The notes under the pieces are model-generated. The model was not told the DNA's origin. It saw nothing but the letters and a program-made list of their open reading frames with translations, and made no database searches. A stretch of DNA of 38,623 nucleotides, taken from NCBI GenBank assembly GCA_017526785.1, contig JAFXQV010000031.1:1-38623 (forward strand). The letters run 5' to 3'. The translations under genes and the position numbers were made by a program. Below, piece after piece: positions 29,300 through 38,623 of the stretch; positions within the stretch are counted from its first letter, which is position 1, and every line of letters starts with the position of its first letter. Origin of the DNA: Oscillibacter sp. (lineage in GTDB: Bacteria > Bacillota > Clostridia > Oscillospirales > Oscillospiraceae).

Positions 29300-32200
29300 T
29301 CAATTCAGCAAGTCCATGAGTTCCTCGTTCGAGAGGCTGAAAAGCGATTCCCGTTCGCCGGAGAGTATCGCGTCGGCAAGGTCTCTTTTCGCTTCCTGCA
29401 TGGCTAATATTTTCTCCTCGATACTCCCCTTGACAATCATCCGGTAGACCGTGACCTGATTTTTCTGCCCGATTCTGTGGGCGCGGTCGGTGGCCTGATT
29501 CTGCGCGGCCAAGTTCCACCACGGGTCGTAGTGGATAACCACGTCCGCGCCAGTGAGGTTCAGTCCGGTTCCGCCCGCTTTCAGGGAAATCAGAAACACG
29601 GGGGTGTCGTCCTCGTTGAACGCCCGCACAAGCCGGAGGCGCTCTTCTTTGGGCGTGGAGCCGATGATTTTGTAGTGGGGGATTTTGGCCTTGCGCAAAT
29701 CTTCTTCGAGCAGTGCCAGCATGGAGGCGAACTGCGAGAAAATCAGCGTTTTGTGTCCGCCGCCCATGGCGCTTTCCACGAGTTCCAGACACGCCGAGCG
29801 CTTGGCGCTTCCGCCGTGGTAGTCCTCGAAAATCAGGGACGGGTCACAGCAGATTTGGCGTATCCGCATGAGTTCGGCGAAAATCCGGATACGGTCTTGC
29901 CCGGACTGCCCCGAATCGGCAAGCATGCGCTTCATGCGCACAACCTGCCCGTCGTAGAGTTTCCGCTGTTCGTCCTCGAAACGGGTATAGCGGATTTCCT
30001 CCAGCTTGGGCGGCAGGTCTTTGAGAACGTCGGCTTTCAGGCGGCGCAGAATAAAGGGTGCCGTCACCTGTTTGAGACGTTCGGCGGGTTCGGCCTCGCG
30101 GTTCTTGGTGATGGGCGTCTCGAAGCGCCGTAGAAATGTCGGGTAATCGTAGAGGAAGCCGGGCATAAGAAAGTCAAAGATACTCCAAAGTTCGGCCAGA
30201 CGGTTTTCGATGGGCGTCCCGGTGAGCGCCAGACGCGTGCGGGCGTACACGATTTTGACGGCTTTCGTCATGCCGGCCTTTTGGTTCTTGATATACTGCG
30301 CCTCGTCCAGAATCATGACCGAGAAACGGAGTTGCGCGTAAATCGTGATGTCCTGCCGGAGGAGGTCGTAACTGGTAATATAGGCGTCAACGGCGGCGGA
30401 GCCGTCCAGCGCGCCTTGCAGGAAGCCTTTCCGGGCGGCGGCGTTCCCGGCCACCGGGAGTACGGACAGCGACGGCGCGAAGTGGTGAAACTCTTCCTGC
30501 CAGTTGTAGACCAGCGAGGCCGGACAGACTATCAACGCGGGTTCGGCCTCCCCGGATTCTTTGAGCGCCTGCAAAAACGTGATGGCCTGTAACGTCTTGC
30601 CGAGACCCATTTCATCGGCCAGAATCCCGCCGAACCCGGCGGCGGCGAGTGTGCGGAGCCACTTGTAGCCGTAAATCTGGTACGGGCGGAGGATGTCGGC
30701 CTGCGCGGCGGGGACTTCGTAATCGGCGTCGCGGATTGTCCGGAAGCCGCGAATCAGGCCGCGATAAGTCCTGTCACGGTTGGCGGCCAACTCGTGGTGC
30801 TTGTCCAGCATGGTGTCGAGGTACAGGGCGCGGAAAAGGGGTAACTCGATATGCCCCTGTATGACTTCCTCCGCGGACAGGTTCAGGTCATGCGTGAGGG
30901 CGTCGAGGGACGCGAGCTGGTCGTCTCCGGAGAGCGTCACAAAGTCGCCGTTTTTGAGGCGGTGAAAGGTCTTTTTGCGGCGGTAGCTCTCCAGAACGTC
31001 GAGCAGTTCCCGCGTGGAAATGTCTTTGGACAAAATGGAGATGTCCAGAAGCCCGCTGTTCACGGACACGCCCACGTGAATCTGCGGCACGGAGCGAATG
31101 ACGCAATTCCGGAAAGCGTTGCTCCCCTGCACCTCCCCGTAGCGGGAGAGTTCCGGGACGCCCTCCGTGAGAACGCGGTAGAGGCTGTCTTCCTCGGCGT
31201 CGCCGCGATAGGTCGAAGTCTCCGGGTCGAAGCGCGGGAAGTAGCGGCGTATGACCTTTTCGACGCGCGCCTCCTGCGCGCCGTCGGAGTACATGCCGCC
31301 GGACGCGCGGCGGGGCAGGCGGCACGGCTCCGCGTCGCCGTAAGATACAAATTCTTCCAGAAAGCAGTCGTCCTCCAAGTCAATCCGGAACAGAAACGAC
31401 GGTTCCGGCGGCAGGACGCTTTCGGCCTCTTGGGCGCAGTTGTCGACGAACTCCACATAGGGCGATTCCAGCAGGCGCGGCGCGATACGGTAGTAGAACT
31501 CCGCAAGGCGGTTCCTGCCCACCAAAAAGCGGATTTTCCCGGAATACTCCTCGGCCACGGACAAAAACGGCTGTATGGCCTGCGTTTCTTCGGCGTTCAG
31601 GCGGCTGAGTGCGTGTTCGTCAAGGACGTACAAATCGGAACTGCCTTGGAGCGTCAGCGGCAAGTCGCCCGTGACCTCTATGCCGAGGAAGCCGCCGTTG
31701 GCGTCGGCGATACGCCGCGAGACGAGGCGTAGCTTCAAGTCCGCGTGGCCGACGCGAATGCTACCCGAGTGTTTCCGGAGTCGGTCTGTCAGTTCGCAAG
31801 TACGCCCGTCGGCGGCCTCATAGAAGCGGTCGAGCGCGGCACCCCTGAGCGTTTCCCGCGCAAGCGTACGCGTTTCGGCGGGTTCGTCCCAGTAGTGATA
31901 GGCGCGGATTTGTTCCCGGAGCAGGTCGGCCTCGCTGATTCTCCGCCGGATGAAGGCCAGCCACGGGAGGCTGTCGTCCGCGAAAGTCATGGAGGCGAAG
32001 TCCGCGCGGACAGTCTTACTCAAAAAGAGCTTCCGCCCCTGTTCGGCGGCGTCCGAGAGTTCCCGCAGGTTCTTCAGGATGATGAACCGCCCGTTGAGGC
32101 CGATTTTAAAGGAAAGGTTCGCCTCCTGCCAGTCCTCCAGCACGATACGGGGCAGGAGTGTCAGAACGGGCGCTTTGTCCGAATCCGGCGCGCCGGGTTC

Positions 32201-33109
32201 GGACGCTTCCGGGGCGGTCTGCGCGGCGTCCATCTCCTGAAAGAAGCGCTCGGCGGTGCTGTCCGTGGCGTCGCCGGGGTTTTCGCGCTCGATATACTCC
32301 CCCACGCGCGCCAGCAACGCTAATTCGTGTTCACACAGGGAGTCGTCCATAGAGAAGCGGCGGCAGTCGCAGGCATGCGAGAGCAGTTCGTTCGCGGAGA
32401 GCGCGACGCTGACGGACTGGCTTTCCAGCGCGTCCGACACGTTCGCGCTTACGGACAAGGCCTGTTGTCCGGCGCGGGTGTAGACGATTTCCGGGGCGGA
32501 CATGGCAACGATACCCTCCCGGAGTAACGCCTTGGCGCGGTTGAGCGCGTACAAACTGGCGCTTCGCCCCTTCATTGCGCGGCGGACTTGGAAGTAGGAC
32601 GACGCGGCGGACGCCTCCGGGCGCGGGAAAAACGGCGCGACTTCCACGCGAATGGTACTCTCTTCCATATACTGCCGCTTTCTGCGGAGGCGTTCCTGTT
32701 TGAGCTGTTCGGCCTGTTCCTCTTTCCTCTGGCGGATAAGGGATTCTTCGGAGGTCTCGCGGAAGCGCCACGGCCCGCGCTTGCGCTCCCAGAGCATCAG
32801 AAGCGCGGCCTCGTGTACGCACAGGGTCACGCGTTCGCCCGCGTAGCGGTCGGCCAGACAACTGCACGCAAATCGTTTCGGGTTCCAGTCGTCGGAGCAG
32901 GAGGCCGGGGCGTCACGAATCACAGCGCGCCCCATGCTCTGCCCCTGCCCGATGATGGCGTGTGCCTCGCGTTCCGTACAGGCGAAGTCCTCATACTGGT
33001 GCATGGTCAGAAACTGCGCGGCCTTCTTCAATATCTGCCCGTTAAAGAATCCCCGCCACTCTTTCAGGCATTCTCGCGGGGGGTTATTCGGGTTAGAGCG
33101 TTGCTTCAT
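29300..33109 (-). CDS. SNF2-family helicase-like ATPase with two SWIM-type zinc motifs, 1269 aa
   Basis: The start at 33109 (MKQRSNPNNPPREC) has AAGGAG upstream. Two separate C-x-C ... C-x-H motifs are visible: CSCLADRYAGERVTLCVH at about residues 82-99 and CDCRRFSMDDSLCEH at about 246-260. A long SNF2-associated region follows to about 800. The helicase core carries ADEMGLGKT (about 832), ILDEAQYIKN (about 935), LTGTPIENRLAELWSIFDFL, LKAGGTGLNLTGADVVIHYD and ATDRAHRIGQKNQVTVYRMI. Such bacterial SNF2 proteins translocate on double-stranded DNA and are thought to remodel DNA-bound proteins such as RNA polymerase. One SWIM domain is the usual number. No phage-defence genes adjoin it. It lies 40 bp after the DUF362 gene and probably shares its transcript. 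Confidence 0.95.
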   Translation of the reverse strand: MKQRSNPNNPPRECLKEWRGFFNGQILKKAAQFLTMHQYEDFACTEREAHAIIGQGQSMGRAVIRDAPASCSDDWNPKRFACSCLADRYAGERVTLCVHEAALLMLWERKRGPWRFRETSEESLIRQRKEEQAEQLKQERLRRKRQYMEESTIRVEVAPFFPRPEASAASSYFQVRRAMKGRSASLYALNRAKALLREGIVAMSAPEIVYTRAGQQALSVSANVSDALESQSVSVALSANELLSHACDCRRFSMDDSLCEHELALLARVGEYIERENPGDATDSTAERFFQEMDAAQTAPEASEPGAPDSDKAPVLTLLPRIVLEDWQEANLSFKIGLNGRFIILKNLRELSDAAEQGRKLFLSKTVRADFASMTFADDSLPWLAFIRRRISEADLLREQIRAYHYWDEPAETRTLARETLRGAALDRFYEAADGRTCELTDRLRKHSGSIRVGHADLKLRLVSRRIADANGGFLGIEVTGDLPLTLQGSSDLYVLDEHALSRLNAEETQAIQPFLSVAEEYSGKIRFLVGRNRLAEFYYRIAPRLLESPYVEFVDNCAQEAESVLPPEPSFLFRIDLEDDCFLEEFVSYGDAEPCRLPRRASGGMYSDGAQEARVEKVIRRYFPRFDPETSTYRGDAEEDSLYRVLTEGVPELSRYGEVQGSNAFRNCVIRSVPQIHVGVSVNSGLLDISILSKDISTRELLDVLESYRRKKTFHRLKNGDFVTLSGDDQLASLDALTHDLNLSAEEVIQGHIELPLFRALYLDTMLDKHHELAANRDRTYRGLIRGFRTIRDADYEVPAAQADILRPYQIYGYKWLRTLAAAGFGGILADEMGLGKTLQAITFLQALKESGEAEPALIVCPASLVYNWQEEFHHFAPSLSVLPVAGNAAARKGFLQGALDGSAAVDAYITSYDLLRQDITIYAQLRFSVMILDEAQYIKNQKAGMTKAVKIVYARTRLALTGTPIENRLAELWSIFDFLMPGFLYDYPTFLRRFETPITKNREAEPAERLKQVTAPFILRRLKADVLKDLPPKLEEIRYTRFEDEQRKLYDGQVVRMKRMLADSGQSGQDRIRIFAELMRIRQICCDPSLIFEDYHGGSAKRSACLELVESAMGGGHKTLIFSQFASMLALLEEDLRKAKIPHYKIIGSTPKEERLRLVRAFNEDDTPVFLISLKAGGTGLNLTGADVVIHYDPWWNLAAQNQATDRAHRIGQKNQVTVYRMIVKGSIEEKILAMQEAKRDLADAILSGERESLFSLSNEELMDLLN

Positions 33110-33149
33110 GAATTCCCATTCTCCTTGGGGGACGGTGCGCGGCGGACAG

Positions 33150-34043
33150 TCACAGTGTGACAAGTTCATATTCACGGGAGCCGAAGCCCAGCGCGGCGGC
33201 GGCCTCAATCGTGTGGACGCCGTGGCGGGATTCCACGCGCTCGAGGAAATGCGCCTGTCCGGGGTCGTCCTTGGCGGCGTAAATCAGGTCAATACAGGCT
33301 TGGTCAATGGCCACCGGGTCGAGTGACGCCAGTATGCCAATGTCCCTCATGCACGGGTCCTCCGCCACGGCGCAGCAGTCACAGTCCACAGACAGATTTT
33401 TCATGACGTTGACAAAGGCGATTTTGCCCTTGAAGTGTTCGACGACGGTCGAGGCGGCGTCGGCCATTGCCTCACAGAAAGCGTCCTGTTCGGCGTGAAC
33501 GTCCCACGCCTTGACGTTGTCGTCGGAGCGCCCGCCGGAGTGGATGAGCGCTTTCCCGGCGCGGGAGGCACAGCCAATCGACAACTGCTTCAGCGCCCCG
33601 CCGTAGCCGCCCATGGGGTGTCCCTTGAAGTGCGCAAGCACCAGCATGGAATCGTAATTGGCGATGTCCTTGCCGACGGTGTTGGTTTTCAGGACTTTTC
33701 CGTTTTTGACAGGCCAGACGAGGTCGGGGCCTTCCGCGTCCATCAGGTCAACGTGGAACAAGCGGTTCCAGCCGTGGTACTCAATCAGCTTTCTGTGTTC
33801 GTCGGTGTAGTCCCGGACGCCGCCGGCGGCCTTGCCGTAGGCGGTGTTGCACTCGACAATCGTGCCGTCGACGGCCTCGACCATCGGTTTCCAGAACTCC
33901 GGACGCAGGAAGTTTTGGTTGCCCTTTTCGCCGGAGTGGATTTTCGCGGCGACTTTCCCGGGCAGTTCGACGCCCAAAGCGCGGTACACTTCCACGACTT
34001 TTTCCGGCGTGATGTCTTTTGTGAAGTACACTTTTGATTTCAT
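33150..34043 (-). CDS. DUF362 family protein, 297 aa
   Basis: The start at 34043 (MKSKVYFTKDITPEKVVEV) has AGGAGGG upstream. Family features visible: KIHSGEKGNQNFLRPEFWKP, VECNTAYGKAAGGVRDYT, DSMLVLAHFKGHPMGGYGGA, LKQLSIGCASRAGKALIHSG and a Cys-rich VDCDCCAVAEDPCMRDIGIL followed by LDPVAIDQAC. DUF362 proteins are widespread in anaerobes, often with iron-sulfur clusters; this one has the Cys cluster but no separate ferredoxin domain. The reaction is unknown. The SNF2 gene follows. Confidence 0.92.
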   Translation of the reverse strand: MKSKVYFTKDITPEKVVEVYRALGVELPGKVAAKIHSGEKGNQNFLRPEFWKPMVEAVDGTIVECNTAYGKAAGGVRDYTDEHRKLIEYHGWNRLFHVDLMDAEGPDLVWPVKNGKVLKTNTVGKDIANYDSMLVLAHFKGHPMGGYGGALKQLSIGCASRAGKALIHSGGRSDDNVKAWDVHAEQDAFCEAMADAASTVVEHFKGKIAFVNVMKNLSVDCDCCAVAEDPCMRDIGILASLDPVAIDQACIDLIYAAKDDPGQAHFLERVESRHGVHTIEAAAALGFGSREYELVTL

Positions 34044-34250: not shown

Positions 34251-36338
34251 ATGTCAGACACGCGCAGACTCCCGGAACTGTTCGGAAGCATGGTATTCGA
34301 CGAGCAGACCATGAAAGAACGGCTTTCGGCGGCGTCCTACGGCGCTTGGAAGCACTGCGTCACGGGCGGGACGGCGCTGGACTTGTCCACCGCCAACGAA
34401 ATCGCGCAGGCCATGAAGCAGTGGGCGGTCGAACGCGGCGCGACGCACTTTACGCACTGGTTCCAGCCCATGACGGGCGTCACCGCCGAAAAACACGACA
34501 GCTTTATAACGCCCGTCGGCGGCGGGCGCGTCCTGATGGAGTTCTCCGGAAAGGAACTCGTCCGGGGAGAGCCGGACGCGTCGTCGTTCCCGTCGGGCGG
34601 CCTCCGCGCCACGTTCGAGGCGCGCGGGTACACCGCGTGGGACCCAACTTCGTTCGCGTTCATCAAAGAAGGCTCTCTGTGCATTCCGACGGCCTTTTGT
34701 TCGTATTCCGGACACGCGCTCGATAAAAAAACGCCTCTGCTCCGCTCTATGGACGACGTTTCGCGGCAGGCCGTGCGGATTCTCCGCCTCTTCGGCGACA
34801 CCCGGACAAAGCGCGTCATTCCGCAGGTCGGCCCCGAACAGGAATACTTCCTCATCGACCGGGACATGTACCGCGAACGGCAGGACTTGCGCATGACGGG
34901 GCGAACCCTGTTCGGCGCGAAGCCGCCGCGCGGACAGGAACTCGACGACCATTATTACGGCGCGATTCGCCCGCGCGTGGCGGCCTACATGCGAGACTTG
35001 GACGAGGCGCTATGGGAACTCGGCATTTTCGCGAAGACCAAACACAACGAAGTCGCGCCGTCCCAGCACGAAATGGCACCGATTTACACCGACGCGAACA
35101 CGGCGTGTGACCAGAATCAGTTGACCATGGAGGTCATGAAGAAAGTCGCCGAACGCCACGGACTGGTATGCTTACTGCATGAGAAGCCGTTCGCGGGCTT
35201 CAACGGCTCCGGCAAACACGACAACTGGTCACTGTCCACGGACGGCGGGGAGAACCTCTTCAAGCCCGGCGACACCCCCGGCGAAAACGCCCGCTTCCTG
35301 CTCTTTCTGGCGGCGTTCCTGAAAGGCGTCGACGACTATCAGGACTTCCTACGCGCCACCGTGGCGTTCCCGGGCAATGACCACCGCCTCGGCGGACTGG
35401 AAGCCCCGCCCGCGATACTGTCCGTGTTCCTCGGCGACGAGCTGACCGCCGTCGTGAACGCCATCATTCACGGCACCCCGGTCGCCTCCAGCGGGAAGCG
35501 ACAGCTCCGCATTGGCGTGGACGTACTCCCGGCCATTCCGCAGGACACCACAGACCGCAACAGAACAAGCCCCATGGCCTTCACGGGCAACAAATTCGAG
35601 TTCCGCATGCTGGGGGCGTCGCAGTCGGTCTCGGGACCCAATATCGCCCTCAACACGATTATGGCGGAGGAGTTGCGGCAGTTCGCCGACGCGCTCGAAT
35701 CGTGCGACGACTTCCAGCGCGCCTTAAACGACCTCATGAAGCGGGTCTTTACCGAACACCAGAGAATCATTTTCAACGGCAACGGCTACGACGACGCGTG
35801 GGTGCGCGAGGCCGAACAGCGCGGGTTAAGCAACTTCACCTCCGCCGCCGACGCGCTCCCGATGTACACCGCCGGGAAGAACGTGGAACTGTTCGTGCGG
35901 CACGGTATCTACACCGAAGAAGAGATTCAAGCCCGCGCCGAAATCCATGTGGAGAACTACACCGCCGTGACCGCAATCGAAGCCCGGACAATGGCCGACA
36001 TGATACGCCACGAGATACTCCCGGCCGTCTCGTCGTACGCGGCGGAACTGTGCGGGCGTATCACGCGCAAGGACGCCCACGGCATGCCGTGCGACTACGA
36101 AACCCGTACGGCGGAGGAAATTTCCGCGCTGACGGACGCGCTTTTCGGGGCGTGTGAGCGTCTGGAACGCGACCTCGGCGAAATGCCCAAAGAGCCGACA
36201 AAAGCCATGGTCTACAGTCACGATGTGATTGTCCGCGACATGTCCGACGCCCGGGCGTACGCCGACCGTCTCGAACTGCTGACGGCCTCCGATTACTGGC
36301 CGTTCCCGACTTACGCGCAACTGCTGTTTTCCGTGTAA
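34251..36338 (+). CDS. glnN: Glutamine synthetase, type III
   Basis: This 695-residue enzyme makes glutamine from glutamate, ammonia and ATP. The length and the N-terminal FGSMVFDEQTMKERLSAASY are those of the GSIII (GlnN) class. Conserved parts: THFTHWFQPMTGVTAEKHDS, QVGPEQEYFLID, FAKTKHNEVAPSQHEMAPIY, CLLHEKPFAGFNGSGKHDNW and NRTSPMAFTGNKFEFRMLGA. AAAGGGGA precedes ATG 34251. It is monocistronic, ended by the hairpin at 36350-36381. No GlnR-type operator was identified. Confidence 0.97.
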   Translation: MSDTRRLPELFGSMVFDEQTMKERLSAASYGAWKHCVTGGTALDLSTANEIAQAMKQWAVERGATHFTHWFQPMTGVTAEKHDSFITPVGGGRVLMEFSGKELVRGEPDASSFPSGGLRATFEARGYTAWDPTSFAFIKEGSLCIPTAFCSYSGHALDKKTPLLRSMDDVSRQAVRILRLFGDTRTKRVIPQVGPEQEYFLIDRDMYRERQDLRMTGRTLFGAKPPRGQELDDHYYGAIRPRVAAYMRDLDEALWELGIFAKTKHNEVAPSQHEMAPIYTDANTACDQNQLTMEVMKKVAERHGLVCLLHEKPFAGFNGSGKHDNWSLSTDGGENLFKPGDTPGENARFLLFLAAFLKGVDDYQDFLRATVAFPGNDHRLGGLEAPPAILSVFLGDELTAVVNAIIHGTPVASSGKRQLRIGVDVLPAIPQDTTDRNRTSPMAFTGNKFEFRMLGASQSVSGPNIALNTIMAEELRQFADALESCDDFQRALNDLMKRVFTEHQRIIFNGNGYDDAWVREAEQRGLSNFTSAADALPMYTAGKNVELFVRHGIYTEEEIQARAEIHVENYTAVTAIEARTMADMIRHEILPAVSSYAAELCGRITRKDAHGMPCDYETRTAEEISALTDALFGACERLERDLGEMPKEPTKAMVYSHDVIVRDMSDARAYADRLELLTASDYWPFPTYAQLLFSV

Positions 36339-36349
36339 AGTCGTGCTAA

Positions 36350-36381
36350 AGTCCCTCTCCCGCGCAAACGGGAGAGGGACT
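36350..36381. terminator. Hairpin between convergent glnN and GGDEF-EIIC genes
   Basis: AGTCCCTCTCCCG and CGGGAGAGGGACT pair perfectly over 13 bp with a 6-nt loop. There is little U after it on the plus strand and only TTTA on the minus strand, yet its position between two convergent stops supports a shared terminator. Confidence 0.75.
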
Positions 36382-36422: not shown

Positions 36423-38623
36423 TTACTTTTGTTCGGCACGGCAAATCGGCTTCCAAAGCCCCAGCAGAACGGCCGTGACGAGGGAGCCGACCGCCAGAGA
36501 GAGCGCGTAAAGAAGCGGCTTTCCCATGACAGGCAGCACGAACAGTCCGCCGTGGGGCGCGGGCAGGGTACAGCCGAACAGCGCGGACAGTCCCCCCGCG
36601 ACCGCCGAACCCGCCATGCACGACGGGATAACCCGTCGTATGTCCGTAAAGACATACGGCAGCGCGCCCTCCGTGATGAAGGACAGCCCCATGAACAACG
36701 TACCCGGTCCGCGTTCCCATTCCGCGTCCGAAAACTTCTTGCGGAACAGCGCTATGGAAAGGGAAATCCCAATCGGCGGCACCATGCCGCCCGCCATGAC
36801 CGACGCCATCATGTCGGCGCGGCCGTTCAAAATGCCGTCCACGCCATAATTGTACGCCACTTTGTTGACAATGCCGCCCATGTCGAAGGCCATCATGCCG
36901 CCGGAGAGCGCGCCCGCCGCGACGTGGCTCTTGGCGGCGGCGTATTCCAGCAGGGACGTGAAGAAGCCCCCCAGCGACAGCGACAGCGGCGTGATTATCA
37001 GCCACGACAGCAACTGCATGAAAATCAGGTTGAACACAGGGTACACGACGATTGGCGCGACTTTCCGGAAAAAGCGCGGCAGGCGGTTCGTGAACTGCCG
37101 CAATTCCCCGGTAATCACCCCGGCGGCCATGCCCGCTATCATAGCGCCGATAAAGCCCGAGTGGCTGTCAATGGTCATATAGCCGCCGACAAAGCCCGCC
37201 ATGAACGCTTCCTCTCCGTTGATTCCGTAGGCCATGAACCCCGCGAAGACCGGGAGCATGAAATTGAAGGTCGTGCCGCCAATCGCCTTTAACGTCGCCG
37301 CCATGGGCGTAATGGAGCCGAACTGCGCCCGGATGTCAAGGGAGAGCGCGGACAGGTCAAGCGAGGCGGCGTCGAACAGGAAGGCCAAGCCAATCAGCAC
37401 GCCGCCCCCGGCGATAAACGGAGCCATCCAGCGTACGCCCAGAATCGTGCCTTTCACGAGATGTTCCCGGAAATAGGCTTTGAGGCGTTCCCGGAATCGC
37501 TTGGCCGCGCCGGACACAACGGGCGTTTCCGCTTTTGCGGGAATGACCAGCTTTTCGGCGTGGGCAATGGCCGCCGCGACCGTCACGAGCTTTTTCTCCG
37601 TCGACGCCGTTTTCTGCGCGTCGGGCTTGTAGAGGCTGGCCGTGTTGCGTCCGCTCTCCTTCGACTGGTAGAGCGCCAAGTCCGCCTTTTCCGACAGCTT
37701 GGCCAGCGGCAGGCCGTCCTCGACGGGTGCCACGCCCGCGCTTATGGTCATGCGGAAGCCGTCGGGCGGGCGCGAATCCTCCACCTTGCGGCACAGTTCC
37801 AACAAGGCCTCGTGCGCCTTGGAGCCGTCAAGGGGAAGCACGCCTATGAACTCGTCGCCGCCCCAGCGCCCCCCGAATCCGCCATAGCGCTTTATCATAT
37901 CCTGTATGCCCCGCGCCAGATGACGCAGGGCGTTGTCCCCGGCGGCGTGGCCGTAATTGTCGTTAATCTGCTTGAAAAAGTCGATGTCCAGCAGGAACAG
38001 CGACGCCTCGCGGCGGTGTTCCGCGCCGCTGAACTCCGCGAAAGCGGCGTTGAACGATTTGCGGTTTGCAAGCCCGGTCAGTTCGTCGGTGGTGGCGTAG
38101 CGGAGGATTTCGCGGCGGTACTTGGAAATAATATTGGCAATCAGAACCACAACGAACACCATCAGAAGCGCGTCAATGCCCAGCAACAGCGTAAATTGCC
38201 GCCGCTGTAAGGCCTGCAAGTCCCCGCCGCGGCTGACGACTTCCAGAAAATACGCGCCGCCGTAGAGCGGGCGCACAACGTAACAGTCCTGCATGAGCAG
38301 GAACGGCGAGTTACTGCCCGTCCAGAATACCGCCTTGCCGTTTTTCAAGGCCTCGTCCAGCGTCGCCCTGTCCGGAGCCTCCCAGTCGTACGGCGCGCCG
38401 GGGCTGGAGTACGACATGCCGCCGTTGGAGCCCGTCACCCGGAAGCCGACGTTTTTTTGAATCCATTCCGACATCGTGGGCATGTACTGCGTGATACCGT
38501 GCTCGGGAGTCTGCGCGGACAGCGCGTTGGCAATCATGCGGGAATACAAATCTGTTTCCATTTCCGCCGACATCCGGAAAATGTCGGTGTTGAGGGAGGA
38601 GAAGAGAAGCGCGTTACCGAAAA
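36423..38623 (-). CDS. Partial: extracytoplasmic sensor + GGDEF + PTS EIIC (fructose type) fusion protein
   Basis: The reading frame is open to the window edge, so the N-terminus is missing. At least 732 residues are visible; numbers below count from the in-frame ATG at 38573. Residues 1-122 are a probable extracytoplasmic sensor (YMPTMSEWIQKNVGFRVTGS, FLLMQDCYVVRPLYGGAYFL), followed by a membrane helix at about 127-150. The GGDEF domain spans about 158-316: TDELTGLANRKSF, FLLDIDFFKQINDNYGHAAG and an intact RWGGDEF at 236-242; no RxxD inhibitory site precedes it. From about 370 to the end lies an EIIC domain of the fructose family: MLPVFAGFMAYGINGEEAFM, MMAFDMGGIVNKVAYNYG, LSFITEGALPYVFTDIRRVI and PHGGLFVLPVMGKP. 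No EIIA or EIIB part is present. The continuous frame argues against an assembly join. Confidence 0.9.
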   Translation of the reverse strand, partial: FGNALLFSSLNTDIFRMSAEMETDLYSRMIANALSAQTPEHGITQYMPTMSEWIQKNVGFRVTGSNGGMSYSSPGAPYDWEAPDRATLDEALKNGKAVFWTGSNSPFLLMQDCYVVRPLYGGAYFLEVVSRGGDLQALQRRQFTLLLGIDALLMVFVVVLIANIISKYRREILRYATTDELTGLANRKSFNAAFAEFSGAEHRREASLFLLDIDFFKQINDNYGHAAGDNALRHLARGIQDMIKRYGGFGGRWGGDEFIGVLPLDGSKAHEALLELCRKVEDSRPPDGFRMTISAGVAPVEDGLPLAKLSEKADLALYQSKESGRNTASLYKPDAQKTASTEKKLVTVAAAIAHAEKLVIPAKAETPVVSGAAKRFRERLKAYFREHLVKGTILGVRWMAPFIAGGGVLIGLAFLFDAASLDLSALSLDIRAQFGSITPMAATLKAIGGTTFNFMLPVFAGFMAYGINGEEAFMAGFVGGYMTIDSHSGFIGAMIAGMAAGVITGELRQFTNRLPRFFRKVAPIVVYPVFNLIFMQLLSWLIITPLSLSLGGFFTSLLEYAAAKSHVAAGALSGGMMAFDMGGIVNKVAYNYGVDGILNGRADMMASVMAGGMVPPIGISLSIALFRKKFSDAEWERGPGTLFMGLSFITEGALPYVFTDIRRVIPSCMAGSAVAGGLSALFGCTLPAPHGGLFVLPVMGKPLLYALSLAVGSLVTAVLLGLWKPICRAEQK

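Follow-up and report, generated by a model that had tools for sequence, protein, structure and literature searches.

At the end of the window, the whole 38,623-base stretch of DNA analysed here, a minus-strand open reading frame closes with a stop at 36423-36425 and runs past the last base in the upstream direction. The longer contig surrounding the window (188,898 bases) contains the whole gene, which encodes 753 amino acids (L036:2423-4684, minus strand). Its start codon, an ATG with GGGAG standing upstream, begins 61 bases past the window end, a position that agrees with the starts of its relatives. The protein is made up, in order, of a transmembrane helix, a Cache-like domain predicted to lie outside, a second transmembrane helix, a GGDEF domain, a variable linker and a fructose-family PTS EIIC domain (Table 1). 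A single unbroken frame with a sensor, a membrane helix, a GGDEF domain and a full-length fructose EIIC was what the original prediction had described, and the 753-residue gene with its PF00990 and TIGR01427 matches bears this out. The extension of the contig that it had proposed gave the start codon, and the neighbours were listed in seven loci. Residue numbers refer to the 753-residue protein, in which the first residue of the window is residue 22.

The fusion gene is convergent with a gene for a type III-like glutamine synthetase (695 aa; window 34251-36338, by eye). A perfect hairpin stands between the two at 36353-36378, with arms of 10 bp as searched and 13 bp by eye; it is the sole match within the window and perhaps serves both genes as a shared terminator. 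At 29300-33208 lies a long frame that reads by eye as an SNF2-type helicase, its N-terminal part resembling SWIM.

Table 1. Parts of the fusion gene and their positions in the window
Feature	Position	Strand	Basis or remark
Cache-GGDEF-EIIC fusion gene, residues 22-753 of 753 and stop	36423..38621	-	first 21 codons at or past window end
End of first transmembrane helix (hydrophobic segment residues 10-28; from residue 22 inside window)	38577..38621	-	hydropathy; helix in structure model
Extracytoplasmic single Cache-like sensor, residues about 33-155	38220..38588	-	predicted
Second transmembrane helix, residues 164-182	38139..38195	-	hydropathy
GGDEF diguanylate cyclase domain, residues 197-347	37644..38096	-	Pfam PF00990, 1.7e-32
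GGDEF active-site motif, residues 275-279	37848..37862	-	sequence
Variable linker, residues 353-400	37485..37628	-	low model confidence, block means of pLDDT 33-48; identity 8-64% to 11 relatives
Fructose-family PTS EIIC domain, residues 404-745	36450..37475	-	TIGR01427
E672 of FITEG motif	36669..36671	-	identical in 12 fusions, 32 FruA and 3 E. coli EIICs
H711 of PHGG motif	36552..36554	-	identical in 12 fusions and 32 FruA

The GGDEF domain scores 112.9 bits against PF00990 (cut-off 23.8), a model that matches all six fusion members scanned. The Pfam EIIC model, PTS_EIIC, matches one of the six and gives no match to the window protein even at E 10. The NCBIfam model TIGR01427 was therefore used instead, and it matches the EIIC domain over model positions 10-346 of 346 (3.6e-83, 279.8 bits, cut-off 157.55). 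The intact GGDEF active-site motif and the DMGG and PHGG signatures of EIIC, all part of the original prediction, are present. A Cache fold lies between the two transmembrane helices, as in Cache-type extracytoplasmic sensors. The EIIA and EIIB of a complete fructose PTS enzyme II are found neither in the fusion protein, as predicted, nor among the ten neighbours scanned in seven loci; a search with EIIB models for an EIIB remnant within the fusion gave matches in other genes only. The structure model of the whole protein is weak (pLDDT 65.4, 6 rows), and the geometry of the EIIC was therefore left uninterpreted. No solved fructose-family EIIC was found either by sequence search, where a FruA query gave 14 rows at E up to 10 with EIIA or EIIB only, or with a profile of the fusion, whose 53 rows have their best stretches in the GGDEF region.

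The same architecture was sought in other genomes, and it occurs in one stop-free frame in at least 12 distinct genomes, the window's own included. In a sample of the window's genus, 6 of 86 genomes carry the full-length fusion, again counting the window's own. The samples of the phylum and of Lachnospiraceae, the family of the Oribacterium carrier, give lower bounds, with at most two candidates scored per genome: at least 1 of 398 phylum genomes (the window's own; two further genomes match over the EIIC only) and at least 4 of 397 Lachnospiraceae genomes, that carrier included, where the other 66 of 70 matching genomes match over the EIIC only. A scan of genome contigs kept 80 loci, of which at least five are full-length, with the titles Oscillibacter (two), Lachnospiraceae, Solobacterium and Oribacterium sp. 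P6A1. Two of these five are members of the genus sample and one is the Oribacterium carrier; with overlaps removed to reach the 12, one Lachnospiraceae MAG and one Solobacterium MAG are added. The carriers' record titles suggest Bacillota from the rumen and the gut. A stop between GGDEF and EIIC in other strains, which the original prediction had named as the mark of two separate genes, is absent from all 12 members, and in alignments that span the whole protein, relatives share 44-80% identity with the window protein; the open frames in 12 genomes rule out an assembly or sequencing join of two genes, an explanation with next to no chance of being correct.

In a maximum-likelihood tree of 44 EIICs, the 12 fusions form one group apart from the 32 FruA proteins with a support of 100/100, which would be consistent with a single old origin. 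When three E. coli EIICs were added, the fusion group came to lie inside the clostridial FruA on a long stem (1.81), and the deciding node is without support; the topology suggests that the fusion EIIC may have arisen within clostridial FruA. Different hosts are interspersed in the fusion tree, with Solobacterium placed among Lachnospiraceae and the window's genus, as would fit transfer of the fusion between gut bacteria. L146 and L147 (genomes G915 and G623) make up a divergent sub-branch of the family, in genomes with no detectable fructose EIIB. Their EIICs have Ser at G673, as has that of the genus member G009.

The GGDEF domain is predicted to be a working cyclase. Its cyclase residues (D.D.FK..ND, GGDEF and K..GR) are intact in all 12 fusions, with contexts read by eye, and the Asp of the RxxD inhibitory I-site is missing in all 12, also by eye; the roles of these residues are presumably those of their counterparts in PleD and WspR, after which we assigned them. 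EAL domains occur in all 12 carrier genomes, so c-di-GMP is likely turned over in these bacteria.

The EIIC domain retains a core that is shared with FruA. D601, N607, K608, E672 and H711 are kept in all 12 fusions. They belong to a set of 61 columns that are identical in every fusion, out of 124 that at least 31 of the 32 FruA EIICs have in common; in 24 of the 124, the FruA residue occurs in no fusion. Three E. coli EIICs (FruA, MngA and FrwC) were taken together with the 32 FruA as 35 transporter-type EIICs. When conservation in all three E. coli EIICs is required as well as in at least 31 of the 32 FruA, 41 columns remain; every fusion retains 25 of these, no fusion retains 6, and the other 10 are mixed. 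The residues at these six positions (413, 418, 480, 494, 605 and 678) are present in 32/32 FruA and 3/3 E. coli EIICs and in 0/12 fusions. At the position aligned with H711, E. coli FruA has His, MngA Gly and FrwC Trp, a pattern that hints at a fructose-like ligand. In the five genomes that have both proteins, all 10 pairwise comparisons give the fusion EIIC the higher dN/dS (0.13-0.28, against 0.04-0.09 for the FruA EIIC), 1.6 to 6 times as high. The pairs are not independent, and in 9 of the 10 the fusion has the higher dS too. The six lost family-wide residues and the higher dN/dS may be taken as signs of a changed job for the EIIC.

We propose, with moderate confidence, that the protein is a dual-input membrane-bound diguanylate cyclase with its EIIC as a sugar receptor. 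A membrane module would flank the GGDEF domain on either side: towards the N terminus the Cache-like domain, exposed to the outside, and towards the C terminus the FruA-like EIIC. The EIIC would be a transceptor-like receptor for a fructose-like sugar and would no longer carry it across the membrane. Cache-type and EIIC-type modules dimerise in their families, and the occupancy or the inward/outward state of the EIIC dimer could be passed on through the linker. Jointly with ligand binding by the Cache domain, it would set whether the two GGDEF domains of the dimer meet and produce c-di-GMP, the presumed direction of the response being from sugar to cyclase. Solved GGDEF-bearing chains named 'Ammonium transporter', discussed below, indicate that fusion of a transporter with a cyclase is possible. 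The original prediction had allowed for either a sugar-sensing or an uptake-coupled c-di-GMP synthase; that reading remains the preferred one, and the sequences speak somewhat more for sensing than for transport. The claim of novelty has to be narrowed. A fuller scenario, for which we see somewhat less than an even chance, is that the EIIC was captured once from a clostridial FruA, was freed from phosphotransfer and is now a sugar receptor that together with the Cache domain gates a diguanylate cyclase, the fusion having spread among gut and rumen Bacillota.

In the main rival reading, which we consider unlikely, the EIIC is a functional sugar permease that receives phosphate in trans from the EIIB of FruA or from another EIIB, and its flux or phosphorylation state sets c-di-GMP synthesis. 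The window's genome has EI and its own FruA (EIIA-EIIB-EIIC), which adjoins a gene reading by eye as FruK (1-phosphofructokinase) and holds the genome's one fructose-type EIIB, on another contig than the fusion. A second EIIB-bearing frame (653 aa; G000:C23:180383-180637) lies on the same contig as the fusion and is not of the fructose type by TIGR00829. EI is found in 9 of the 12 carriers, a fructose-type EIIB in 7, and a match to the broader EIIB model PF02302 in 9 (all but G518, G623 and G915, and thus also G027 and G520). Within the genus, 13 of 86 genomes have a fructose-type EIIB, 5 of 6 carriers vs 8 of 80 non-carriers (Fisher p 2e-4, uncorrected for kinship). Such an enrichment is expected if EIIB acts on the EIIC in trans and thus counts against a receptor, as does the polar EIIC core kept in 12/12 fusions, which a pure receptor might not need. 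Among the remaining carriers, G519 and G573 have a fructose-type EIIB and G518, G520, G623 and G915 do not; its base rate in the Lachnospiraceae sample is 142 of 397 genomes over the cut-off.

Several observations speak against phosphorylation in trans. Five of the 12 carriers are without a detectable fructose EIIB, and two of these have EI: G623, which is without any PF02302 EIIB, and G520. On the other side, each of these five genomes is either known to be incomplete (G027, 76%) or has no stated completeness, and EI is missing from three of them as well. These three, G027, G518 and G915, show no match at all to the EI model, which matches 83 of 86 genus genomes, and may therefore be incomplete. 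The family-wide EIIC residues lost at six positions in every fusion also argue against an ordinary permease, as do the 24 columns in which no fusion has the FruA residue and the dN/dS above that of the FruA EIIC. Neighbours were compared for seven of the 12 carriers (L036, L037, L038, L039, L041, L044 and L045); ten adjacent genes were classified by Pfam, with no PTS gene among them, and the rest by eye. The neighbours differ among the seven loci, which rules out a conserved operon there. The absence of PTS genes among these ten neighbours, the separate FruA of the window's own genome and the presence of EI without a fructose EIIB in G623 and G520 are points in favour of the EIIC as a receptor. 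A second GGDEF gene adjoins the fusion in two of the seven loci (L041:7323-8489, an Oscillibacter MAG, and L044:5799-7352, Oribacterium sp. P6A1). A CcpA-type cre pattern has 0 matches in 20 kb of L036, with 0.38 expected by chance.

That the EIIC is a mere membrane anchor and dimeriser, with the Cache domain as the sole input, seems improbable. Many diguanylate cyclases consist of Cache and GGDEF and nothing more, and EIICs form dimers, both of which would suit an anchor. However, the EIIC is 51-84% identical between the window protein and 11 relatives, against 45-86% for the GGDEF domain, 13-67% for the sensor and 8-64% for the linker; its identity exceeds that of the sensor in 11/11 relatives and that of GGDEF in 9/11, being equal in one and lower in one (G105, where GGDEF is slightly more conserved). 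When dN/dS is compared across the four stretches, the EIIC comes lowest in three of three pairs (0.10, 0.22 and 0.15), compared with 0.17, 0.27 and 0.20 for GGDEF, 0.47, 0.44 and 0.31 for the sensor and 0.96, 0.50 and 0.24 for the linker, as computed by our own Nei-Gojobori script, with dS above 1 for sensor and linker in the third pair. It is thus under purifying selection and, judged by its codons, is a maintained part in use; the outside sensor and the linker are by the same measures the most variable parts. What is kept in the EIIC includes polar core residues and not its helices alone. Less probable still is a reverse flow in which the GGDEF domain, with GTP or c-di-GMP bound, gates the passage of sugar through the EIIC as facilitator or permease: GGDEF does occupy the place of EIIB in the FruA layout, N-terminal to EIIC, but its catalytic residues are kept and it has no I-site for binding c-di-GMP.

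The fusion resembles several known systems in part. FruA (EIIABC or EIIBC) has an EIIC of the same family (TIGR01427 over cut-off) with shared DMGG, NK, GGM-PP, ITE and PHGG residues. It differs in that the fusion has TM-Cache-TM-GGDEF in place of EIIA and EIIB, and the fusion EIIC forms a separate group marked by the lost residues and the higher dN/dS. In the solved chains named 'Ammonium transporter' (PDB 8QPF, 8QJ3 and 8QJ4), a permease is likewise joined to a diguanylate cyclase domain, with GGDEF at residues 461-633 of 644-661; the Amt identity of the first 460 residues is taken from the chain name. They belong to another transporter family and their GGDEF is chain-terminal, whereas in Cache-GGDEF-EIIC it lies between two membrane modules. 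A permease joined to a cyclase is therefore already known, and what is new is the Cache-GGDEF-EIIC family rather than a new category. The Cache-GGDEF diguanylate cyclases GcbC and SpdE share the extracytoplasmic Cache-type sensor and the GGDEF domain with the fusion. They end after GGDEF, where the fusion has a further 340-residue permease domain.

GcbC and SpdE are named in a 2022 review (PMC8846402), whose Fig. 4 legend counts PTS_EIIC-containing c-di-GMP proteins, that is, proteins that likewise have an EIIC and a c-di-GMP enzyme domain in one architecture. That set is defined by Pfam PTS_EIIC, which does not match five of the six fusion members, and the text accompanying it names neither architecture nor function. 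Since the model matches one in six members, the Cache-GGDEF-EIIC family would mostly escape a Pfam census of this kind. The same review describes control of the c-di-GMP level by PTS state in Vibrio cholerae through EIIA-Glc and PdeS; there the proteins are separate, and EIIA and a phosphodiesterase take part instead of EIIC and a cyclase. In Salmonella, c-di-GMP affects PTS transcription, according to a passage of PMC10100716 that contains no fusion, and the part of PMC5209957 touching on permease-cyclase fusions concerns a neighbouring gene only. In open-literature searches, judged mostly without full text, we recognised no paper describing a GGDEF-EIIC protein; the second refuting result named in the original prediction, an earlier description with a settled function, thus did not turn up. 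The original statement that no described protein of this kind was known holds to that extent, but has to be qualified by the count of EIICs with c-di-GMP enzyme domains in the review's legend.

To our knowledge, few inputs of diguanylate cyclases have been identified, and very few of them are transporters. Pfam-based surveys likely under-count proteins such as the one described here, because the Pfam EIIC model matched only one of the six members scanned. Cache-GGDEF-EIIC is probably a real sugar-responsive switch that is conserved in several bacteria, and since the family is conserved and offers clear candidate residues, whether it is a transporter or a receptor can be tested directly. If the captured-permease scenario is true, the protein would be a one-protein, two-input gate from nutrient to c-di-GMP. 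If the EIIC is a receptor, a PTS permease would have been turned into a sensor, and Firmicutes of the gut and rumen would have a means of linking sugar directly to c-di-GMP.
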